Shown here: in pieces, positions 62 through 14,288 of the stretch
Layout: every line of letters begins with the position of its first letter
Position numbering within the stretch: the stretch's first letter is position 1
From: Azotobacter beijerinckii
GTDB taxonomy: Bacteria > Pseudomonadota > Gammaproteobacteria > Pseudomonadales > Pseudomonadaceae
Reading direction: 5' to 3'
Length of the DNA: 64,000 bases
Assembly (NCBI RefSeq): GCF_900110885.1
Contig: NZ_FOFJ01000019.1
Location: 1 to 64,000 of the forward strand
Notes under the pieces: generated by a model
Seen by the model: only the letters and a program-made list of their open reading frames with translations
What the model was told of the DNA's origin: nothing
The model's database searches: none
Translations under genes and position numbers: made by a program

Positions 62-667
62 TCAGAAGTCAAAGAACACCGTTTCCCCTTCGCCCTGGAT
101 GCGGATGTCGAAGCGGTAGGCGGTCTTGCCGTCCACTTCGCAGCGCTTGGCGATCAGGGTCTTGCGACGCTCCGGCTGCTCGATCAGGTTCAGCACCGGA
201 TCGACGGCATTGGCTTCGACTTCGTCGTCGAAGTAGAGGCGGGTCTGCAGCTGGATGTTGATGCCGCGGGCGAACAGCGACACGCTGATGTGCGGCGCCA
301 TCGGTTTGCCGGTGGCGTTCTTCACCACGCCCGGCTTGACGGTCTTCACCGTCCACTCGCCGGCATCGAAGGTGGTCGCGGTGCGGGCGAAGCCGTTGAA
401 GGACTTCTCCAGGTCGTAGGCGGTGTCGTAGACGCCTTCGTGGTTGGCCTGCCAGAGCTCCAGGTAGGAGTCGCGGACCAGGTGGCCGTTACCGTCCAGG
501 ACCTTGCCGATCAGGACGATGTGCTCGCCCGGCGCACCCTCCTTGGCCATTTCGTTCCAGATTTCCTGTTCGCGGGTCGGGTTGCCGGCGGCGGCGCCGG
601 CCAGGCCGATGTGCACGTAGGGACCAGCGGTCTGCGAGGGGGTTTCCGGCAGCAGTTCGTATTTCAT
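62..667 (-). CDS. pcaG: Protocatechuate 3,4-dioxygenase, alpha subunit
   Basis: This 201-residue protein is the alpha subunit of the intradiol dioxygenase that cleaves protocatechuate with O2 to 3-carboxy-cis,cis-muconate in the cytoplasm (beta-ketoadipate pathway). It starts MKYELLPETPSQTAGPYVHIG, typical of PcaG, and carries the beta-sandwich core (GKVLDGNGHLVRDSYLELWQA near residue 75). As expected for the alpha chain it lacks the Tyr/Tyr/His/His iron site, which PcaH supplies. The length matches the family (about 200). The ATG at 667 follows an AAGGAG ribosome site. It is the second gene of a pcaHG operon, 17 bp after pcaH, and the window ends its left side 61 bp beyond the stop. Confidence 0.97.
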   Translation of the reverse strand: MKYELLPETPSQTAGPYVHIGLAGAAAGNPTREQEIWNEMAKEGAPGEHIVLIGKVLDGNGHLVRDSYLELWQANHEGVYDTAYDLEKSFNGFARTATTFDAGEWTVKTVKPGVVKNATGKPMAPHISVSLFARGINIQLQTRLYFDDEVEANAVDPVLNLIEQPERRKTLIAKRCEVDGKTAYRFDIRIQGEGETVFFDF

Positions 668-684
668 GGTCGGCTCCTTCTCAC

Positions 685-1404
685 TCACTGATTTTCGAAA
701 CAGGTCTGGCGCTGGCCACGCAGCACGATGTTGAAACGGTACGCCAGGCAGTCCATGGGCACGTTGCTGCTCAGGTCCAGGCGGCCGATCAGGGTCTCGA
801 TGGCGTCCGGGTTGGCGATGGTGCGGACGATCGGGCACTTCGGAATCAGCGGGTCGCCCTCGAAGTACATCTGGGTGATCAGTTTGGTGGAGATCGACGG
901 GCCGCTGATCGACACGTGGATGTGCGACGGACGCCACTCGTTCGGGCCGTTGCGCCACGGGTAGGGACCGGGCTTGACGGTGCGGAAGTAGTAGTAGCCG
1001 TTCGCGTCGGTCAGGGTACGGCCGACCCCGCCGAAGTTGGGGTCCAGCGGCGCCAGGTAGCTGTCGTTCTTGTGACGGTAGCGGCCGCCGGCGTTGGCCT
1101 GCCACATTTCCACCAGGGTATGCGGAACCGGATTGCCGTACTGGTCGATCACCCGACCGCACATGATGACGCGCTCGCCGACCGGCAGACCGCCGTGGTT
1201 GAAGTTGAGCAGCAGGTCGTTGTCGTACTTGCCCATCTTCAGATGGGTGAAGTCCGGACCGGTGGTCTCCGAGAGGGACTGCGGAATGCTGACCAGGGCC
1301 TGGCTCGGCGAGCGGGCGATGGTGGTCTTGTAATCCGGGGTATAACCTTTCGGCTGCCAATTCCGGTCACGGGCGACGAAACGGCGGGTATCGAGCTCGG
1401 ACAT
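685..1404 (-). CDS. pcaH: Protocatechuate 3,4-dioxygenase, beta subunit
   Basis: This is the iron-binding, catalytic beta subunit of protocatechuate 3,4-dioxygenase (239 residues, normal size). The non-haem Fe(III) ligands are visible: Tyr109 in GGRYRHK, Tyr148 in KPGPYPW, and His161 and His163 in RPSHIHVS. Arg158 just before them corresponds to the residue that stabilises the intermediate. The ATG at 1404 has an AAGGAG site eight bases upstream. It heads the pcaHG operon; no other pca gene is present nearby. A PcaQ-type operator lies about 115-130 bp upstream of the start, so induction by a LysR-family PcaQ regulator encoded elsewhere is likely (inference). Confidence 0.97.
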
Positions 1405-1631: not shown

Positions 1632-2690
1632 TCACGGCAGGGGCGGCAGTCCGGCCAGGATGCGCTGCGCCTCCTCGCGCGACAGCGGGTAGTCGAAGAA
1701 GCGTGCGTAGAACTCCAGGGTGCGCCCGGCCATGTCCTGCTGCGGGAACAGCGCCGGGTGCAGTTGGCCGGCCGCCCACTGGATCTGCAGGGCGACTTCG
1801 GTGCCGTAGCGATCCCAGGGAAAGACCCCGGCGGGATTGCGCAGGACGCGACCGCGCCTGACCGCCTCGGTGTGCTTGAGCAGGGCCGCGTCCGGCGCCG
1901 AGTCGAGCGAGCCGGCATCGGCGGCGAGAATCAGCACGTCCGGCTGCCAGGCCAGCACCTGTTCGGCGGAAACCGCCTGGAGGTTGCCACGCAATCCGAG
2001 CGCCGCATTGCGACCACCCGCCACGCCGATCCAATCGTCGATCAGGGTGTCCGCACCATCGACCTTGAGGGGGTTCAGCGAGGCGATGTGCAGTACCCGC
2101 GGCCGCTGCTCCGCGGCGAGCGACCCGGTGACGGCGCGGACCTGGCGCAGGCTGTCGTCGAGATAGGCGTTGTAGTCCGCCGCGCGCCGCGCGGCCTCTT
2201 CCGTGCCGAGCAGCCGGGCGGTGCTCGCCAGGCAATCCTGCAACGAGCGCAGGTCGGTGAAGCGCATCCGCGCCACCGGAATGCCCGCCTGCTCCAGGGC
2301 CAGGGCATTGCGGTCGCCCGCCGAGACGAAGGCCAGGTCCACCCCGGCGACCAGCAGCGCCTCGACGTTGAAGGCCGTCCCGGAGGCCGCCAGCGCCCGG
2401 TGCAACGCCGGCTGGACCCGGAACATCCAGGGTCGGCTCTGCGCATGGTTCACCGTGGCCACGATGCGCGGACCGGCACCCAGGGTCATCAGCAGCGCAT
2501 GGTGGGCGTACCAGGCGTCGGCGACCCGCTCCACCCGGGCCGGCACCAGGATCTGCTGGCCGGTGTCGTCCGCGACGCGGCGCGACGGCTCGGCCGAGGC
2601 CTGGGCCATGCCCAAGGCGAGGCCCAGCCCGGCGGCGCACAGCCGGGCCAGCGGGCGGCGGGGGCCGCGAAGGTCCGTCACGGCGCTCAT
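1632..2690 (-). CDS. Periplasmic binding protein of a FecB/BtuF-type ABC importer
   Basis: This 352-residue protein is a class III periplasmic binding protein (iron-siderophore, B12 and metal-oxyanion group). Its N-terminus has a basic stretch and a hydrophobic stretch ending near ASAEP, a Sec signal peptide. The mature part begins with the usual TGQQILVPARVERVAD strand, followed by a long central helix and a C-terminal lobe containing DVLILAAD. Its ATG overlaps the TonB-receptor stop by four bases (ATGA), so the two are translationally coupled. It is last in a permease-ATPase-receptor-binding-protein operon. The ligand cannot be read directly. The NHAQSRPWMFRV and FNVEALL segments recall MolA-like oxyanion binders more than classic siderophore binders, but that is an impression, not a test. 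Confidence 0.88.
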   Translation of the reverse strand: MSAVTDLRGPRRPLARLCAAGLGLALGMAQASAEPSRRVADDTGQQILVPARVERVADAWYAHHALLMTLGAGPRIVATVNHAQSRPWMFRVQPALHRALAASGTAFNVEALLVAGVDLAFVSAGDRNALALEQAGIPVARMRFTDLRSLQDCLASTARLLGTEEAARRAADYNAYLDDSLRQVRAVTGSLAAEQRPRVLHIASLNPLKVDGADTLIDDWIGVAGGRNAALGLRGNLQAVSAEQVLAWQPDVLILAADAGSLDSAPDAALLKHTEAVRRGRVLRNPAGVFPWDRYGTEVALQIQWAAGQLHPALFPQQDMAGRTLEFYARFFDYPLSREEAQRILAGLPPLP

Positions 2691-4840
2691 AGATCCACCT
2701 GCACGGAAGCCTGGAACATCCGCGGCCGCCCCAGGTCCGCGCTGGCGTTGCCCGCGCCGCTGTAGCCGTTCAGGCCGCCCGGCACGATATTGGTCCAATA
2801 GTGGCGGTCGGTGAGGTTGGTCACTTCCAGGCGGTACACCGTGCTGCGCGCCCACATCTTGGTGGTGTAGCGGGCGCCGGCGTCGAAGGTGCTGTAGGCG
2901 CCGACCCAGTTGTCGTTGGTATTGTCGGTCGGGCGGCGACCGACATGGCGCGCGTTCAGGTTGACCGTGAAACCGGGCAGCTGCGGCAGGCTGTACTCGG
3001 TCAGCAGGTTGGCGGTGATCCGCGGCAGGCCGACGATGCGCTGGTCCTCGGTGGCCGCGGAGGCGGTGTCGAGCAGTTTCGGATCGAGCCAGCTGACCCC
3101 GCCGAACATCCGCAGGTTCGTGGTGAGATGGCCGTCGACCATGAACTCGACGCCACGGTTGCGCTGCTCGCCGGCGACGGCGAAAACGCCGTCCTCCTGG
3201 GTATAGGCGAACGGCCGCTTGATCTGGAAGGCCGCCAGCGACAGCCGGACGCCGCCGAGGGCCAGCTTGCCGCCGACCTCCCATTGCCGGCTGCGGAAGG
3301 GCGAAAGCACGGTGCCGACGTTGGCGCTGCCGGTGGGCGCCGTATCGCCCTGCTGCATGCTGTCGGCGTAGGTCAGGTACAGGGTCATGTCGTCGATCGG
3401 CTTGTACATCAGGCTGCCTGCCGAACTCCAGCCCTTGTCCACCGAGTCGCCGGTACGTCCGGCGGTCTTGCTGTAGCTGGCCGAGGTCATCCGGCTCCAG
3501 CTGCCGGTCACCATCAGGCTCCACTGCGGCGAGAAGGTCAGGGTGTCGCCGAAGATCAGCGACGACTGGGTCGTCGCCGCACTGCGGTAGCGGTCGGTGA
3601 AGTCCGGGTAGTTGGGCTCGGCGAATTCCGCCGGGTCGGCGAGATTGCCCGAGCCGACGGTCTGGGTCCCACCGTCGACCGGGTTGTAGTTCTTCCAACT
3701 GAAACCGCTGAGGCCGAAGGTCAGGTCGTGGCTCAGGAAGCCGGTCCGTACGCGCCCATTGAGGTTGGCCAGGTAGCTGTTGATGGTGAAGCGGCTGGCC
3801 GTGGCGGTGGACACCGTGGTGCGGTAGTCGCCCTTTCCGTTGATCAGCGTATTGGTGACGGCGGTGCTCTCGCGGTCGGCGATCTGCCGCAGGGCGCCGA
3901 GATCCAGCTTCCAGTTGCCGTCGAAATCGTGCTTGAAGTGGACGTCCACGGTACTGGTCTCGTTGTCGTCCCCCGCGTAGCTCTGGCCCAGGTTTTTCTT
4001 GGTCGGATCGAGAGCATGCGGCAGGGATACGCCGCTGGCCAGGGCGAATTTGCCCGGCAGGCCGCGGCTCAGGTAGTTGTAGCGACTGCCCGTGACCTCG
4101 ATCACGCTGCGCTCGCCGAGCTGGAAATCCAGCGCCAGGCTGCCCAGCTGGCGGCGGATCTTGCCGTCCGAAACGTAGGTCTGCTCCTGGTCGTCGAGCA
4201 GGTTCACCCGGTAGCGGATGCGTCCGCCGTCGTCCAGCGGACCGCTGAGGTCGGCGGCCTTGAGCCACGACACCCCGGTGCCGGCCCCCATGGTGATGCG
4301 GTTGCGGGTGAACTCGGTGGGCCGCTTGGAGATGAAGTTGAAGGTCCCGGCGGGGTTGGCCGGGCCATACAACGAGCCGGCCAAACCGTTCATGACCTGG
4401 ATGTTGTCGAACTGCTCGGCCGGATAGTCGGTGGTGGATACCGCGTTGAGGCCGTCGATCCGGCTGTTCTGCACCACGCTGCCCTGCAGGCCACGAGTCT
4501 GCGGGCGAGTCCCGTCGCCCTGCACCGAGGGGATGTAGCGGATGATGTCCTTCACGCTCTTGACCTGCTGATCCTTGATCAGGTCGTACGGCACCACGTT
4601 CATCGAGTACGGGGTGTCCAGCAGCCTGCGCTCGCCCAGCGGGCCGAAGCTGGCGGTCTGCTTACGCGCCCGCTCGGCCTGGGCCTCCGCCACGTCGGCC
4701 TCGGTCTCCTCGTGATCGACGACCTCCAGGGCGTCGAGCCGGACGGGCGCAGGGCTGGAATCGTCGGCCTGGACAAAGCCTGCGGCGACGGCAAGCAGCA
4801 GCGGCGCCCACGAGGGGCGCGCAGGTCTAACAACTGACAT
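2687..4840 (-). CDS. TonB-dependent outer-membrane receptor, metal or metallophore type
   Basis: This is a 717-residue outer-membrane beta-barrel receptor. It has a signal peptide ending near AAGFVQADD, a TonB box-like VRLDALEVVD, a plug domain (LLDTPYSMNVVPYDLI to roughly residue 190) and a barrel ending in the aromatic C-terminus expected for outer-membrane insertion. It has no N-terminal signalling domain of the FecA/FpvA kind, so no partner sigma/anti-sigma pair is expected and none is seen. The plug resembles ferric-siderophore receptors. It lies between the ATPase gene (14 bp gap) and the binding-protein gene (4-bp overlap), so all four genes form one transport operon. Substrate unknown. 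Confidence 0.92.
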   Translation of the reverse strand: MSVVRPARPSWAPLLLAVAAGFVQADDSSPAPVRLDALEVVDHEETEADVAEAQAERARKQTASFGPLGERRLLDTPYSMNVVPYDLIKDQQVKSVKDIIRYIPSVQGDGTRPQTRGLQGSVVQNSRIDGLNAVSTTDYPAEQFDNIQVMNGLAGSLYGPANPAGTFNFISKRPTEFTRNRITMGAGTGVSWLKAADLSGPLDDGGRIRYRVNLLDDQEQTYVSDGKIRRQLGSLALDFQLGERSVIEVTGSRYNYLSRGLPGKFALASGVSLPHALDPTKKNLGQSYAGDDNETSTVDVHFKHDFDGNWKLDLGALRQIADRESTAVTNTLINGKGDYRTTVSTATASRFTINSYLANLNGRVRTGFLSHDLTFGLSGFSWKNYNPVDGGTQTVGSGNLADPAEFAEPNYPDFTDRYRSAATTQSSLIFGDTLTFSPQWSLMVTGSWSRMTSASYSKTAGRTGDSVDKGWSSAGSLMYKPIDDMTLYLTYADSMQQGDTAPTGSANVGTVLSPFRSRQWEVGGKLALGGVRLSLAAFQIKRPFAYTQEDGVFAVAGEQRNRGVEFMVDGHLTTNLRMFGGVSWLDPKLLDTASAATEDQRIVGLPRITANLLTEYSLPQLPGFTVNLNARHVGRRPTDNTNDNWVGAYSTFDAGARYTTKMWARSTVYRLEVTNLTDRHYWTNIVPGGLNGYSGAGNASADLGRPRMFQASVQVDL

Positions 4841-4854
4841 CGGGGGATTACTCG

Positions 4855-5637
4855 CTAGCTGGGAACGAAAAAACGGTGGGGCAGGACTTCGATCTGGCGG
4901 ACTTTCACCTGGTAAAGCTGGTCGATGAGGCCGGCATCGATCACCGCGCGCGGCGCGCCGTCCGCCAGCAGGCGGCCCTGATGCAGAACCAGCGCGCGGT
5001 TGGCCGACTCCAGGGCGTGCTCGGGGCGATGGGTGGTGGCGAGGATGCCGTAGCCCCGCTCCGCCAGGCGTTGCAGGTGGTCGAGCAGACGGCGCTGATG
5101 GCCGTAGTCCAGGCCGGTGATGGGCTCGTCGAGCAGGATGAGCCGGGCCTGCTGGGCGAGCGCCCGGGCGATCAGCACGCGCTGCCGCTCGCCGCCCGAC
5201 AGTTCGGTGTAGACGCGCCCGGCCAGGTGTTCGATGTGCATGTCGGCGAGCGCCTGGTTCACCGCCCGCCAATCGTCCGCCCCGGGAGCCCGGCCCAGCC
5301 CGGTGAACGGCAGGCGCCCCTGGCCGACGATCTGCGTCACCGTGAAGGGAAAGCTCGGCGTATGGCTCTGCGGCACGTAGGCCAGCTGCCGGGCGACCTC
5401 GCGCCGGCCCAGCCCGGACAGGGGCGCGCCGTCGAGCAGGACCTCCCCGGCCTGGGGCCTGAGCAGGCCGAGCAGGATCTTCAGCAAGGTGCTCTTGCCG
5501 GCGCCGTTGGCGCCCAGCAGGGCGATGCAGTCGCCGGGACGCACGCGCAGCGAGATGTCGTCGAGGATGCTCCGCGGGCCGAGCGCATAACGCAGCCCTC
5601 TGGCCTCCAGAACGGGGCCGCTTGCCGACGCGCTCAC
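4855..5637 (-). CDS. ABC importer ATPase, FecE/BtuD type
   Basis: This is the 260-residue ATP-binding subunit of the metal-complex importer. Walker A is GANGAGKST (residues 42-50), the signature is LSGGERQR and Walker B is LILLDEP, with a switch His in TTHRPEH. The GTG start at 5637 overlaps the permease stop (GTGA), which fixes the start and implies coupling. The length fits FecE/BtuD/MolC proteins (about 250-260). It works with the permease just upstream, probably as a 2:2 complex as in BtuCD. Confidence 0.92.
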   Translation of the reverse strand: MSASASGPVLEARGLRYALGPRSILDDISLRVRPGDCIALLGANGAGKSTLLKILLGLLRPQAGEVLLDGAPLSGLGRREVARQLAYVPQSHTPSFPFTVTQIVGQGRLPFTGLGRAPGADDWRAVNQALADMHIEHLAGRVYTELSGGERQRVLIARALAQQARLILLDEPITGLDYGHQRRLLDHLQRLAERGYGILATTHRPEHALESANRALVLHQGRLLADGAPRAVIDAGLIDQLYQVKVRQIEVLPHRFFVPS

Positions 5638-6704
5638 AGCCAGCCCCTCCGCACCCGGTTCAGCACCAGCACGAAGGCGATGGCGCCAAGCAATTCGGTG
5701 AGAATGCCGAGGGGAATCTCGCCGCGGGTCAGGGTACGGGCGAGATCGTCGGCGACCAGTAGGAAGAGCCCTCCCAGGCAGGCACTCATCGGCACCAACC
5801 GGGCGTTCGCCGGGTCGACCAAGAGGCGCGCGAGGTGCGGAATCAGCAGGCCGACCCAGCCGACCATGCCGGCGATGCTCACGGTCAGGGCGGAAATCAG
5901 CGTCGCCAGGGCGATGATCCCATAGCGCAGCCGTCGCACCGGCACACCGAGACTGAGGGCCTCCTCGTCGCTCAGGGACAGCGCATCGATGGCCCGCCCC
6001 AAAAGGCACATGGCCAGGATGGCGAGCGCCAGCAGGGGCGCCGTCCAGGCAAGGACAGCGCTATCTACGGCGCTCAGACTGCCGAGCATCCAGTAGACGA
6101 TCGAGGGCAACTGGTCCAGCGGGTCGGCCAGGTACTTGACCACCGACAGCAGCGCGTTGAACAGCGCATTGCTGACGATCCCGCCGAGCACCAGGATGAG
6201 AATCGACGAGTTGCGGAACAGGCCGGCGATACCCACGCCCACGGCCACCGCCAGCAGGCCGGTGACGCCTCCCAGCAGCGGAATCCAGGCCCCGCCCAGC
6301 CCCAGCACCATGCCGAGCGCCGCGCCGAAGGCGCAGCCGCTGAGCACGCCGAGCAGCCCCGGCGACACCAGTGGGTTGCGGAATACCGCCTGATAGGCCG
6401 CGCCCGAAACGGACAGCCCGGCGCCCACCAAAATCGCCGCCAGCACCCGCGGCAGCCGGACCTCGACGACCAGGCTGTGGAGCAGCGCATAACGCTCATG
6501 CGGGAAATCACCCGACCCGAGCCAGGCGCCGAGGAACTGCAGCAGTTCGGCAAGCGGCACGGCATAGCGGCCCAGGGCGAGCGAAAGGATCGTGGTCCCC
6601 AGCAGCAGCAACGCGCCCCCCCAGAACCAGCGAGTACGGAAGTCGGCCCGGGACGGCTGCCGGCAGTCGGCGCGAAGGGAGGCGGGCGTGGAAAGATCGT
6701 TCAT
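5634..6704 (-). CDS. ABC importer permease, FecCD/BtuC family
   Basis: This 356-residue inner-membrane permease has about ten predicted membrane helices and the FecCD-family hallmarks VRLPRVLAAILVGAGLSVSGA near residue 84 and GWVGLLIPHLAR in the C-terminal third, the loop that contacts the ATPase. It is a single permease gene, so a homodimer is expected (BtuC/MolB arrangement rather than FecC plus FecD). It is the first gene of the operon, and the promoter region with the AT-rich palindrome lies just upstream. There is no Fur-box-like sequence in front of it. Confidence 0.92.
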   Translation of the reverse strand: MNDLSTPASLRADCRQPSRADFRTRWFWGGALLLLGTTILSLALGRYAVPLAELLQFLGAWLGSGDFPHERYALLHSLVVEVRLPRVLAAILVGAGLSVSGAAYQAVFRNPLVSPGLLGVLSGCAFGAALGMVLGLGGAWIPLLGGVTGLLAVAVGVGIAGLFRNSSILILVLGGIVSNALFNALLSVVKYLADPLDQLPSIVYWMLGSLSAVDSAVLAWTAPLLALAILAMCLLGRAIDALSLSDEEALSLGVPVRRLRYGIIALATLISALTVSIAGMVGWVGLLIPHLARLLVDPANARLVPMSACLGGLFLLVADDLARTLTRGEIPLGILTELLGAIAFVLVLNRVRRGWL

Positions 6705-7160
6705 GGCGGAAATTTAGTTAGCTAGCTTTATATATATTCAACTGTATATATAAATATCTTGTAAAGCCTTTCCGTACAGAAAAACGCCCAGAAAAAACGC
6801 CTTCTCCCTACTGAGACCACGACAAACACGGCCGCCGACAGGCGCCGGAACGCCTGCCCAAGCAAATCATAAAACCCCAGCAATTACGTCAAAAAACAAG
6901 CAAATATCAGGGGAAAAATAGTTAAAAAACAAATACTCGACGCCATCACGATACCGACGAAACCAGGCAAAGCGCGACGAGTCGACCTGGTAAAGACGCC
7001 TCCAGCGCTGGAGACCGATTTTCCAGGCACGAGACAGCGAGTCCGCTTCAGGCTATAGCCAGCCCAACATAATTATATAAATGGTTATACATAAGGCAGA
7101 GAAAGTTATGGATCGCGGGCGGGAGCGAGCGGAACCCGCTCCGGCTGTCCGGCTCGGGGC
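6705..7160. other. AT-rich intergenic region between importer operon and MFS gene
   Basis: This 456-bp gap is much richer in A+T than its flanks and contains no credible gene. The part next to the permease start holds the palindrome annotated separately. The remainder has several A-runs. Near 7065-7090 there is another AT-rich stretch containing ATAATTATAT, just past the MFS stop codon. It is the promoter region for the leftward importer operon and the 3' flank of the MFS gene. Confidence 0.6.
6727..6754. promoter_or_regulatory. AT-rich palindrome upstream of the importer operon (ModE-like)
   Basis: Perfect 10-bp arms TTTATATATA and TATATATAAA are separated by an 8-bp spacer (TTCAACTG), 23 bp upstream of the permease ATG. 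ModE molybdate-repressor sites have the general form TATATA-N6-8-TATATA inside GTTAT/ATAAC flanks. The inner parts agree, while the outer G/C pairs are missing here. It is therefore a candidate ModE-type operator; a simple AT-rich promoter element remains possible. Confidence 0.4.
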
Positions 7161-13520: not shown

Positions 13521-14288
13521 ATGAAACAGCCCGTCATCCACTCCCGCGACCTGATCGCCGGCCTGCAGAAGGGCCTGGCCCTGATGCAGCTGTTCTCCGA
13601 GCGCCATCCGCGCCTCAGCGTGCCGCAGGCGGCCAACCTCTCCGGGCTGACCCCGAGCGCGGTGCGGCGCTTTCTGCTGACCCTGGTCCACGACGGCTTC
13701 GCCGAAACCGACGGGCGCCACTACTGGCTGACCGCCAAAGCCCTGCGCATCGGCCAGGCCTACGTGGATTCGGCGCAGCTGCCGCGCATGTTGCGGCCGA
13801 TCGTCGAGCAGGTCGCGCGCAGCACCCAGGAACACGTCTCGGTGGGCGTGCGCGACGGCGACGACATCGTGCACATCGTGCGCAGCCGCTACAGCCACGT
13901 CGCCTCGCTGTCGATCCGCCCCGGCTCGCGGGTGCCGATGTACTGCACGGCGAGCGGCCGGCTGTGGCTGGCCGCGCTGGACGCGGCAGAGCTGGACGCC
14001 TATTTCGCGCGGGTCGAGCTGCGCGCCCTGACGCCCTACACCCAGAGCACGGAAGCGGAAATCCGCGCCGAACTCGCCCGGATCGGCGCACTCGGCCATG
14101 CGCTGGTCGACCAGGAATACGAGGTGGGCATGCGCGTGCTGGGCGTGCCGCTGCGCGACCGCGAGGGGCAACTGAAGGCCAGCCTGACGCTGACCACCCA
14201 TGCCGCGCGGATGAGCCCGGAGGAGATGCGCGAGCGTTACCTGCCCGCCTTATATGAAGCCCAGGCCCTGCTCAGGCCGATTCTCTGA
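13521..14288 (+). CDS. IclR-family transcriptional regulator, PcaR/PobR-like
   Basis: This 255-residue protein has an N-terminal winged helix-turn-helix (GLALMQLFSERHPRLSVPQA to LTPSAVRRFLLTLVHDGFAE, residues about 18-62) and a C-terminal IclR effector domain. PcaR, PobR and CatR of aromatic-acid catabolism are of this type, and the sequence resembles the PcaR/PobR branch (GSRVPMYCTASGRLWLA). It is divergent from the AroE-like/flavoprotein operon and has a PcaR-like operator in its own promoter, so it probably regulates itself and that operon in response to an aromatic or hydroaromatic acid. Confidence 0.9.
   Translation: MKQPVIHSRDLIAGLQKGLALMQLFSERHPRLSVPQAANLSGLTPSAVRRFLLTLVHDGFAETDGRHYWLTAKALRIGQAYVDSAQLPRMLRPIVEQVARSTQEHVSVGVRDGDDIVHIVRSRYSHVASLSIRPGSRVPMYCTASGRLWLAALDAAELDAYFARVELRALTPYTQSTEAEIRAELARIGALGHALVDQEYEVGMRVLGVPLRDREGQLKASLTLTTHAARMSPEEMRERYLPALYEAQALLRPIL

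Follow-up and report, generated by a model that had tools for sequence, protein, structure and literature searches.

The window, a stretch of 64,000 nucleotides of Azotobacter beijerinckii DNA (positions 1 to 64,000 of contig NZ_FOFJ01000019.1), carries a four-gene operon on the minus strand at positions 1632-6704, in which all the genes are present and intact. The genes, and the features of the promoter upstream of them, are as follows.

5634..6704, minus strand, FecCD-type permease (MolB-like); PF01032, 252 bits; best solved match MolB
4855..5637, minus strand, ABC ATPase; PF00005
2687..4840, minus strand, TonB-dependent outer-membrane receptor; TIGR01783, 258.5 bits; best solved relative FemA
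1632..2690, minus strand, periplasmic substrate-binding protein (Peripla_BP_2); PF01497
6727..6754, no strand assigned, perfect palindrome TTTATATATA-N8-TATATATAAA, candidate divergent ModE operator; its position is that of the ModE boxes of the orthologues
6728..6751, minus strand, best 24-mer ModE frame, ATATATACAGTTGAATATATATAA; 7.9 bits, weak

Domain profiles found the receptor, the single FecCD-type permease, the ATPase and the binding protein that the original prediction had named, all of them intact. The four genes are tightly packed, with 4-bp overlaps at two junctions, one between the ATPase gene and the end of the permease gene and the other between the binding-protein and receptor genes. 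The receptor has a plug (PF07715) and a barrel (PF00593) and passes the TIGR01783 model for TonB-dependent receptors of the siderophore type (258.5 bits against a curated cut-off of 223.5). The GC content of the operon, 69%, is similar to that of the flanking DNA, and thus gives no sign of a very recent arrival.

The best match of the permease among solved structures was 2nq2_A, HI1471 or MolB (E 3.7e-58, 200.6 bits), followed at E 1.3e-45 and 159.3 bits by the next best. The MolB match lies 41 bits above the permeases for haem, hydroxamates and vitamin B12, with BtuC, FhuB and HmuU all worse, and the NCBIfam models for B12 and haem importers, including the BtuCDF equivalogs, gave matches that were all below the cut-off. 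Molybdate is imported by MolBC-A, and the ligands of MolA are molybdate and tungstate (PMC4031551). The nearest solved relatives of the receptor carry ferric siderophores, the best of them being FemA. A profile of the binding protein, made from seven orthologues, had as its top solved matches 4ovk, 4hn9 and 4pag, three entries without an assigned ligand; MolA (HI_1472) was the fourth solved entry, at 58.7 bits, with YiuA close behind. An AlphaFold model of the binding protein, of mediocre quality (pLDDT 69), had the same neighbours in Foldseek as in the profile search, with YiuA and MolA ranked together, and MolA at rank 10 showed 18% identity in the structural alignment. The structure of YiuA contains iron and DHB-Arg-Ser, a catecholate fragment; Arg64 of its basic triad corresponds to an alanine in the window protein, as read from the profile alignment and not from a structure. 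His63, Trp88, Arg294 and Tyr295 of the binding protein are invariant and could line its pocket. These neighbours place the binding protein in a group that handles either an oxyanion or a metal-chelate, and its sequence does not choose between the two. With YiuA and MolA ranked together in a model of pLDDT 69, the ligand was not decidable from the fold either.

The clade of the window binding protein is well supported (100/99), and its sister is a protein of Limosilactobacillus fermentum (99/97). The locus of the sister protein comprises a FecCD permease, moaB, moaC, moaD, moaE, moeA, mobA, narH, narJ and narK, the last coding for a nitrate transporter, and this Moco and nitrate-reductase context would point to molybdenum. 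CP033372 (loci L100 and L102), filed as a 760-kb "plasmid" of L. fermentum and carrying suf, nar and moa clusters, is more likely a fragment of the chromosome than a plasmid.

Distant paralogues of the binding protein are found in genome G044, at loci L017 (35% identity) and L019 (30%), in TonB operons that have sigma-54 and VnfA1 motifs. The Avin_39890 operon, activated by VnfA1 only without Mo and V, is reported to have a NifD-like gene downstream (PMC9542535), and so does L019. The matching of L017 to Avin_30860 is based on the motifs and the map position only. MolA was the best solved match of the L019 binding protein, the ORF used being longer at its N-terminus than the protein probably is. 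In the same genome, a moderate ModE-like site (L018 5774-5797, 12.2 bits) and a VnfA1 motif lie upstream of an A. vinelandii-like paralogous operon, whose genes code for a receptor, a methyltransferase, a binding protein, a permease and an ATPase.

The palindrome that had been predicted in the promoter of the window operon is 28 bp long and perfect, and lies 22 bp, not 23 bp, from the ATG of the first gene at 6704. Shuffles of the window gave an expectation of 0 matches to it. No second copy was found in the whole genome with up to three mismatches allowed, which ruled out the palindrome as the box of a wider regulon. Its likeness to ModE sites, also part of the original prediction, proved to be incomplete. 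In the published ModE consensus, ATCGNTATATA-N6-TATATANCGAT, TATATA arms stand six bases apart and are flanked by an outer CG (PMC545781). In the palindrome, by contrast, eight bases (N8) separate the arms and there are no outer CG pairs; its best 24-mer frames have 6-7 mismatches to the consensus and score at most 7.9 bits with a ModE matrix. The matrix was derived from modE promoters of Pseudomonadaceae, with 11 independent sites that do not include the window operon. The score of 7.9 bits is not significant, being reached by 30 of 500 dinucleotide shuffles of the window promoter (p about 0.06). The predicted lack of a Fur box was confirmed: the best match to the 19-bp box within 450 bp upstream of the operon had 9 mismatches, and control by Fur was rejected on this ground. 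Control by VnfA1 and sigma-54 was likewise rejected, as neither the VnfA1 motif GTWC-N6-GTAC nor a -24/-12 promoter was found in the 500 bp upstream. A search with Rfam gave no match at all, and thus no cobalamin riboswitch, and a sigma-70 scan of the window promoter found nothing. A second perfect palindrome, ATAACCATATGGTTAT, is present at 1518-1533, upstream of protocatechuate-dioxygenase-like genes (62-1404, minus strand); the IclR-like regulator encoded at 13521-14288 may perhaps use it as its operator, and a half-site near 7080, ATGGTTAT, resembles it.

Orthologous operons that have these four genes in an identical order are present in Rahnella laticis, in Pseudomonas graminis, Pseudomonas sp. 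CFBP 13711 and P. silvicola T1-3-2, and in a genome of the same family as the window genome, G010. Shorter versions, with the receptor and the binding protein or with the binding protein alone, were found on large plasmids of Pantoea and Chimaeribacter. Directly upstream of each orthologue, the top match of the ModE matrix was a box of the 24-bp E. coli type. The box is CGTTGTATCATTTGGTACATAACG in Rahnella (20.3 bits) and CGCTGTATAGTTTTTTACATACCG in the P. graminis group (16.4 bits; the scores of the group are 16.4, 10.9 and 16.4); it scores 12.5 bits in the P. silvicola chromosome, 17.3-28.7 bits in the Pantoea and Chimaeribacter plasmids and 21.1 bits in a distant operon on a Cronobacter plasmid, whose binding protein is 33% identical. 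The scores of the orthologues were reached by 0-1 of 500 dinucleotide shuffles, and in the 613 kb of the same loci outside those promoters only two matches reached 15 bits, and none reached 18 bits. Each of the five orthologue genomes whose contigs were searched encodes one ModE above the curated cut-off. The orthologous group thus has both marks of a ModE regulon, the 24-bp box upstream and, in these five genomes and the window genome, modE. No clear Fur box was seen in the orthologues of the operon; in at least one paralogue, L024, a Fur-like box is present and a ModE box is lacking.

The window palindrome gains meaning only because it is situated where the orthologues carry real ModE boxes. 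The box of G010 is TA-rich and of intermediate score (10.2 bits), which makes drift of the operator in the branch of the window a reasonable reading. The window genome itself encodes a ModE above the family cut-off, modE adjoins ModABC, and classical ModE boxes are found at modE-modA (20.8 bits), at modC (15.8 bits) and upstream of a gene for a NifA-like activator of the anfA/vnfA type (25.7 bits). That classical boxes are kept at these molybdenum genes shows that the ModE regulon is present, and the site of the window operon would be a divergent member of it at best. A perfect ModE box (L096 3059-3082; G000:C115:67558) also precedes a NifU-like gene and the gene for an activator of the NifA family, in agreement with the sites for ModE that have been described in A. 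vinelandii at the promoters of vnfUA1 and anfA (PMC9542535).

Judged from these comparisons, we lean towards the view that ModE controls the operon in the window genome. It is also possible, if rather less probable, that this control has been lost here, the palindrome then being bound by a different regulator or having arisen as a chance TA repeat; molybdenum could still be taken up in that case. Such a loss would agree with a matrix score that 30 of 500 shuffled sequences reach, with the retention of classical boxes at modE, modC and the anfA-like gene and with the uniqueness of the palindrome in the genome. Against it stand the shared position of the palindrome and the orthologous boxes, the intermediate box of G010 and the lack of a regulator gene adjacent to the operon.

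As for the cargo, the operon could code for an importer of a ferric siderophore of the catecholate type that also binds Mo, with iron as the main cargo and ModE only adjusting the system to the Mo status. Catechol siderophores are known in Azotobacter (PMC10669500), the receptor is nearest to FemA and other siderophore receptors, and the binding protein is similar to YiuA, whose structure was determined with iron and DHB-Arg-Ser. We nevertheless regard this as unlikely, given that the permease is nearest to MolB, that the Gram-positive sister locus lies amid Moco and nitrate-reductase genes, that the window promoter has no Fur box, and that ModE boxes stand in the orthologues where Fur boxes are lacking. 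Uptake selective for W or V instead of Mo appears more doubtful still: the binding of both molybdate and tungstate by MolA (PMC4031551) and the response of the paralogous A. vinelandii operons when Mo and V are both lacking (PMC9542535) would allow for it, whereas the context of the sister locus points to Mo; sequence cannot separate W or V. An importer of vitamin B12 or haem, similar to BtuCD or HmuUV, is very improbable, since the shared ABC superfamily and the sub-threshold matches to NCBIfam models have to be set against the lack of a cobalamin riboswitch and the clearly poorer matches to BtuC and HmuU than to MolB.

We conclude that the main role of the operon is probably the uptake of a Mo (or W) compound by a TonB-linked importer of the MolBCA type. 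The proposal of Mo, W or metallophore uptake made in the original prediction thus draws its strength from the ModE boxes of the orthologues, the MolB-like permease, the Moco and nitrate-reductase genes of the sister locus and the induction by Mo and V starvation reported for paralogous operons of A. vinelandii, and not from the palindrome, which in itself is weak. Counting against a Mo importer are this weak palindrome, the likeness of the receptor to those for ferric siderophores, that of the binding protein to YiuA, and the ModABC that the window genome already has beside modE. Genes other than those of Mo importers can also be under ModE. In the mechanism that we propose, the receptor would bring a Mo compound across the outer membrane in a TonB-driven manner, the binding protein would capture the ligand in the periplasm, and the MolBCA-like ABC transporter would deliver it to the cytoplasm. 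Under sufficient Mo, the orthologous operons would be repressed by Mo-bound ModE, and Mo limitation would open them; in the window, the operator may have drifted. Here we infer the ligand, the transport across either membrane, the binding and repression by ModE and its contact with the palindrome. That the operon codes for a dedicated molybdophore importer, which would take up an intact Mo-chelate (an own or foreign catecholate, or similar) by a ModE-controlled, TonB-dependent route, is a possibility to which we give a little less than even weight. Bare molybdate can pass porins, and for this reason a Mo-chelate is favoured as the cargo. Judged from YiuA, a carrier of ferric catecholates to which the binding protein is structurally related, a metal chelate is as plausible as bare molybdate.

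The system has features in common with several known ones. With MolBCA of Haemophilus influenzae (HI1470-HI1472) it shares one FecCD permease, the ATPase and a Peripla_BP_2 protein, the permease being nearest to MolB, but it adds a TonB receptor and, in the orthologues, a ModE box, and the similarity between the two binding proteins is remote (18%). MolBC-A is of low affinity, and its regulation is poorly understood (PMC4031551). The VnfA1-dependent TonB/ABC operons of A. vinelandii (Avin_30860, Avin_39890 and Avin_47130) also have a TonB receptor, a related binding protein and a link to Mo scarcity; they are, however, under sigma-54 and VnfA1/VnfA3 (PMC9542535) and not under a ModE box, and the window has neither motif. 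YiuABC/YiuR of Yersinia has the binding-protein fold and TonB-linked uptake of a metal chelate in common with the window operon, but is an iron-siderophore system, and differs at Arg64 of YiuA, an alanine in the aligned window protein. The combination of Mo uptake with ModE control, the role proposed for the operon, is also that of ModABC with ModE, which the window genome possesses. ModABC, however, belongs to another class of importers; its binding protein is unrelated, and a TonB receptor is not part of it.

Among the compounds secreted by Azotobacter are catechols, which bind Mo and V. We found no paper in the open-access literature that names an outer-membrane receptor for such complexes, and no report in open-access papers of a TonB receptor under the control of ModE. 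A receptor with ModE boxes across Pseudomonas and Enterobacterales offers a concrete gene and regulator for tests. If the proposal is correct, there would be a TonB-dependent, ModE-controlled route for a metal whose entry is usually ascribed to passage of the free oxyanion through porins; the ModE regulon would extend to active outer-membrane transport, and a group of genes whose present annotation is that of siderophore receptors would be reclassified.

Orthologues with more than 60% identity were found among 198 sampled genomes of the family only in the window genome and G010; the sample held three more genomes of the window's genus, and these have none. A search of the genus around G165 gave no orthologue, and in a class-wide sample the window genome alone carries the system (1 of 369), which is therefore sporadic. 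That a TonB-linked Mo route would suit a diazotroph, as suggested before, is in line with the two nifH-type genes of the window genome, but plant-associated Pantoea and P. graminis carry the system too. On the Pantoea-type plasmids, permease and ATPase are missing beside the genes, and none of these plasmids has a permease orthologue at E 1e-60, a poor fit to a self-contained transporter there. Several of them (L063, L064, L065, L067 and L068) code either for both receptor and binding protein or for the binding protein only, with a strong ModE box upstream, and on a Chimaeribacter arupi plasmid two ModE boxes (L061 8819-8890; 21.0 and 18.0 bits) lie between divergent receptor and binding-protein genes. 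Two plasmids filed as Acinetobacter venetianus (L068, CP060162) and Pseudomonas silvicola (L070, CP093281) carry the Pantoea-type replicon rep_cluster_1232 and look misassigned or contaminated; the binding protein of L068 has the same sequence as the one in Pantoea sp. PSNIH1, and in L070 the genes are fragmented.
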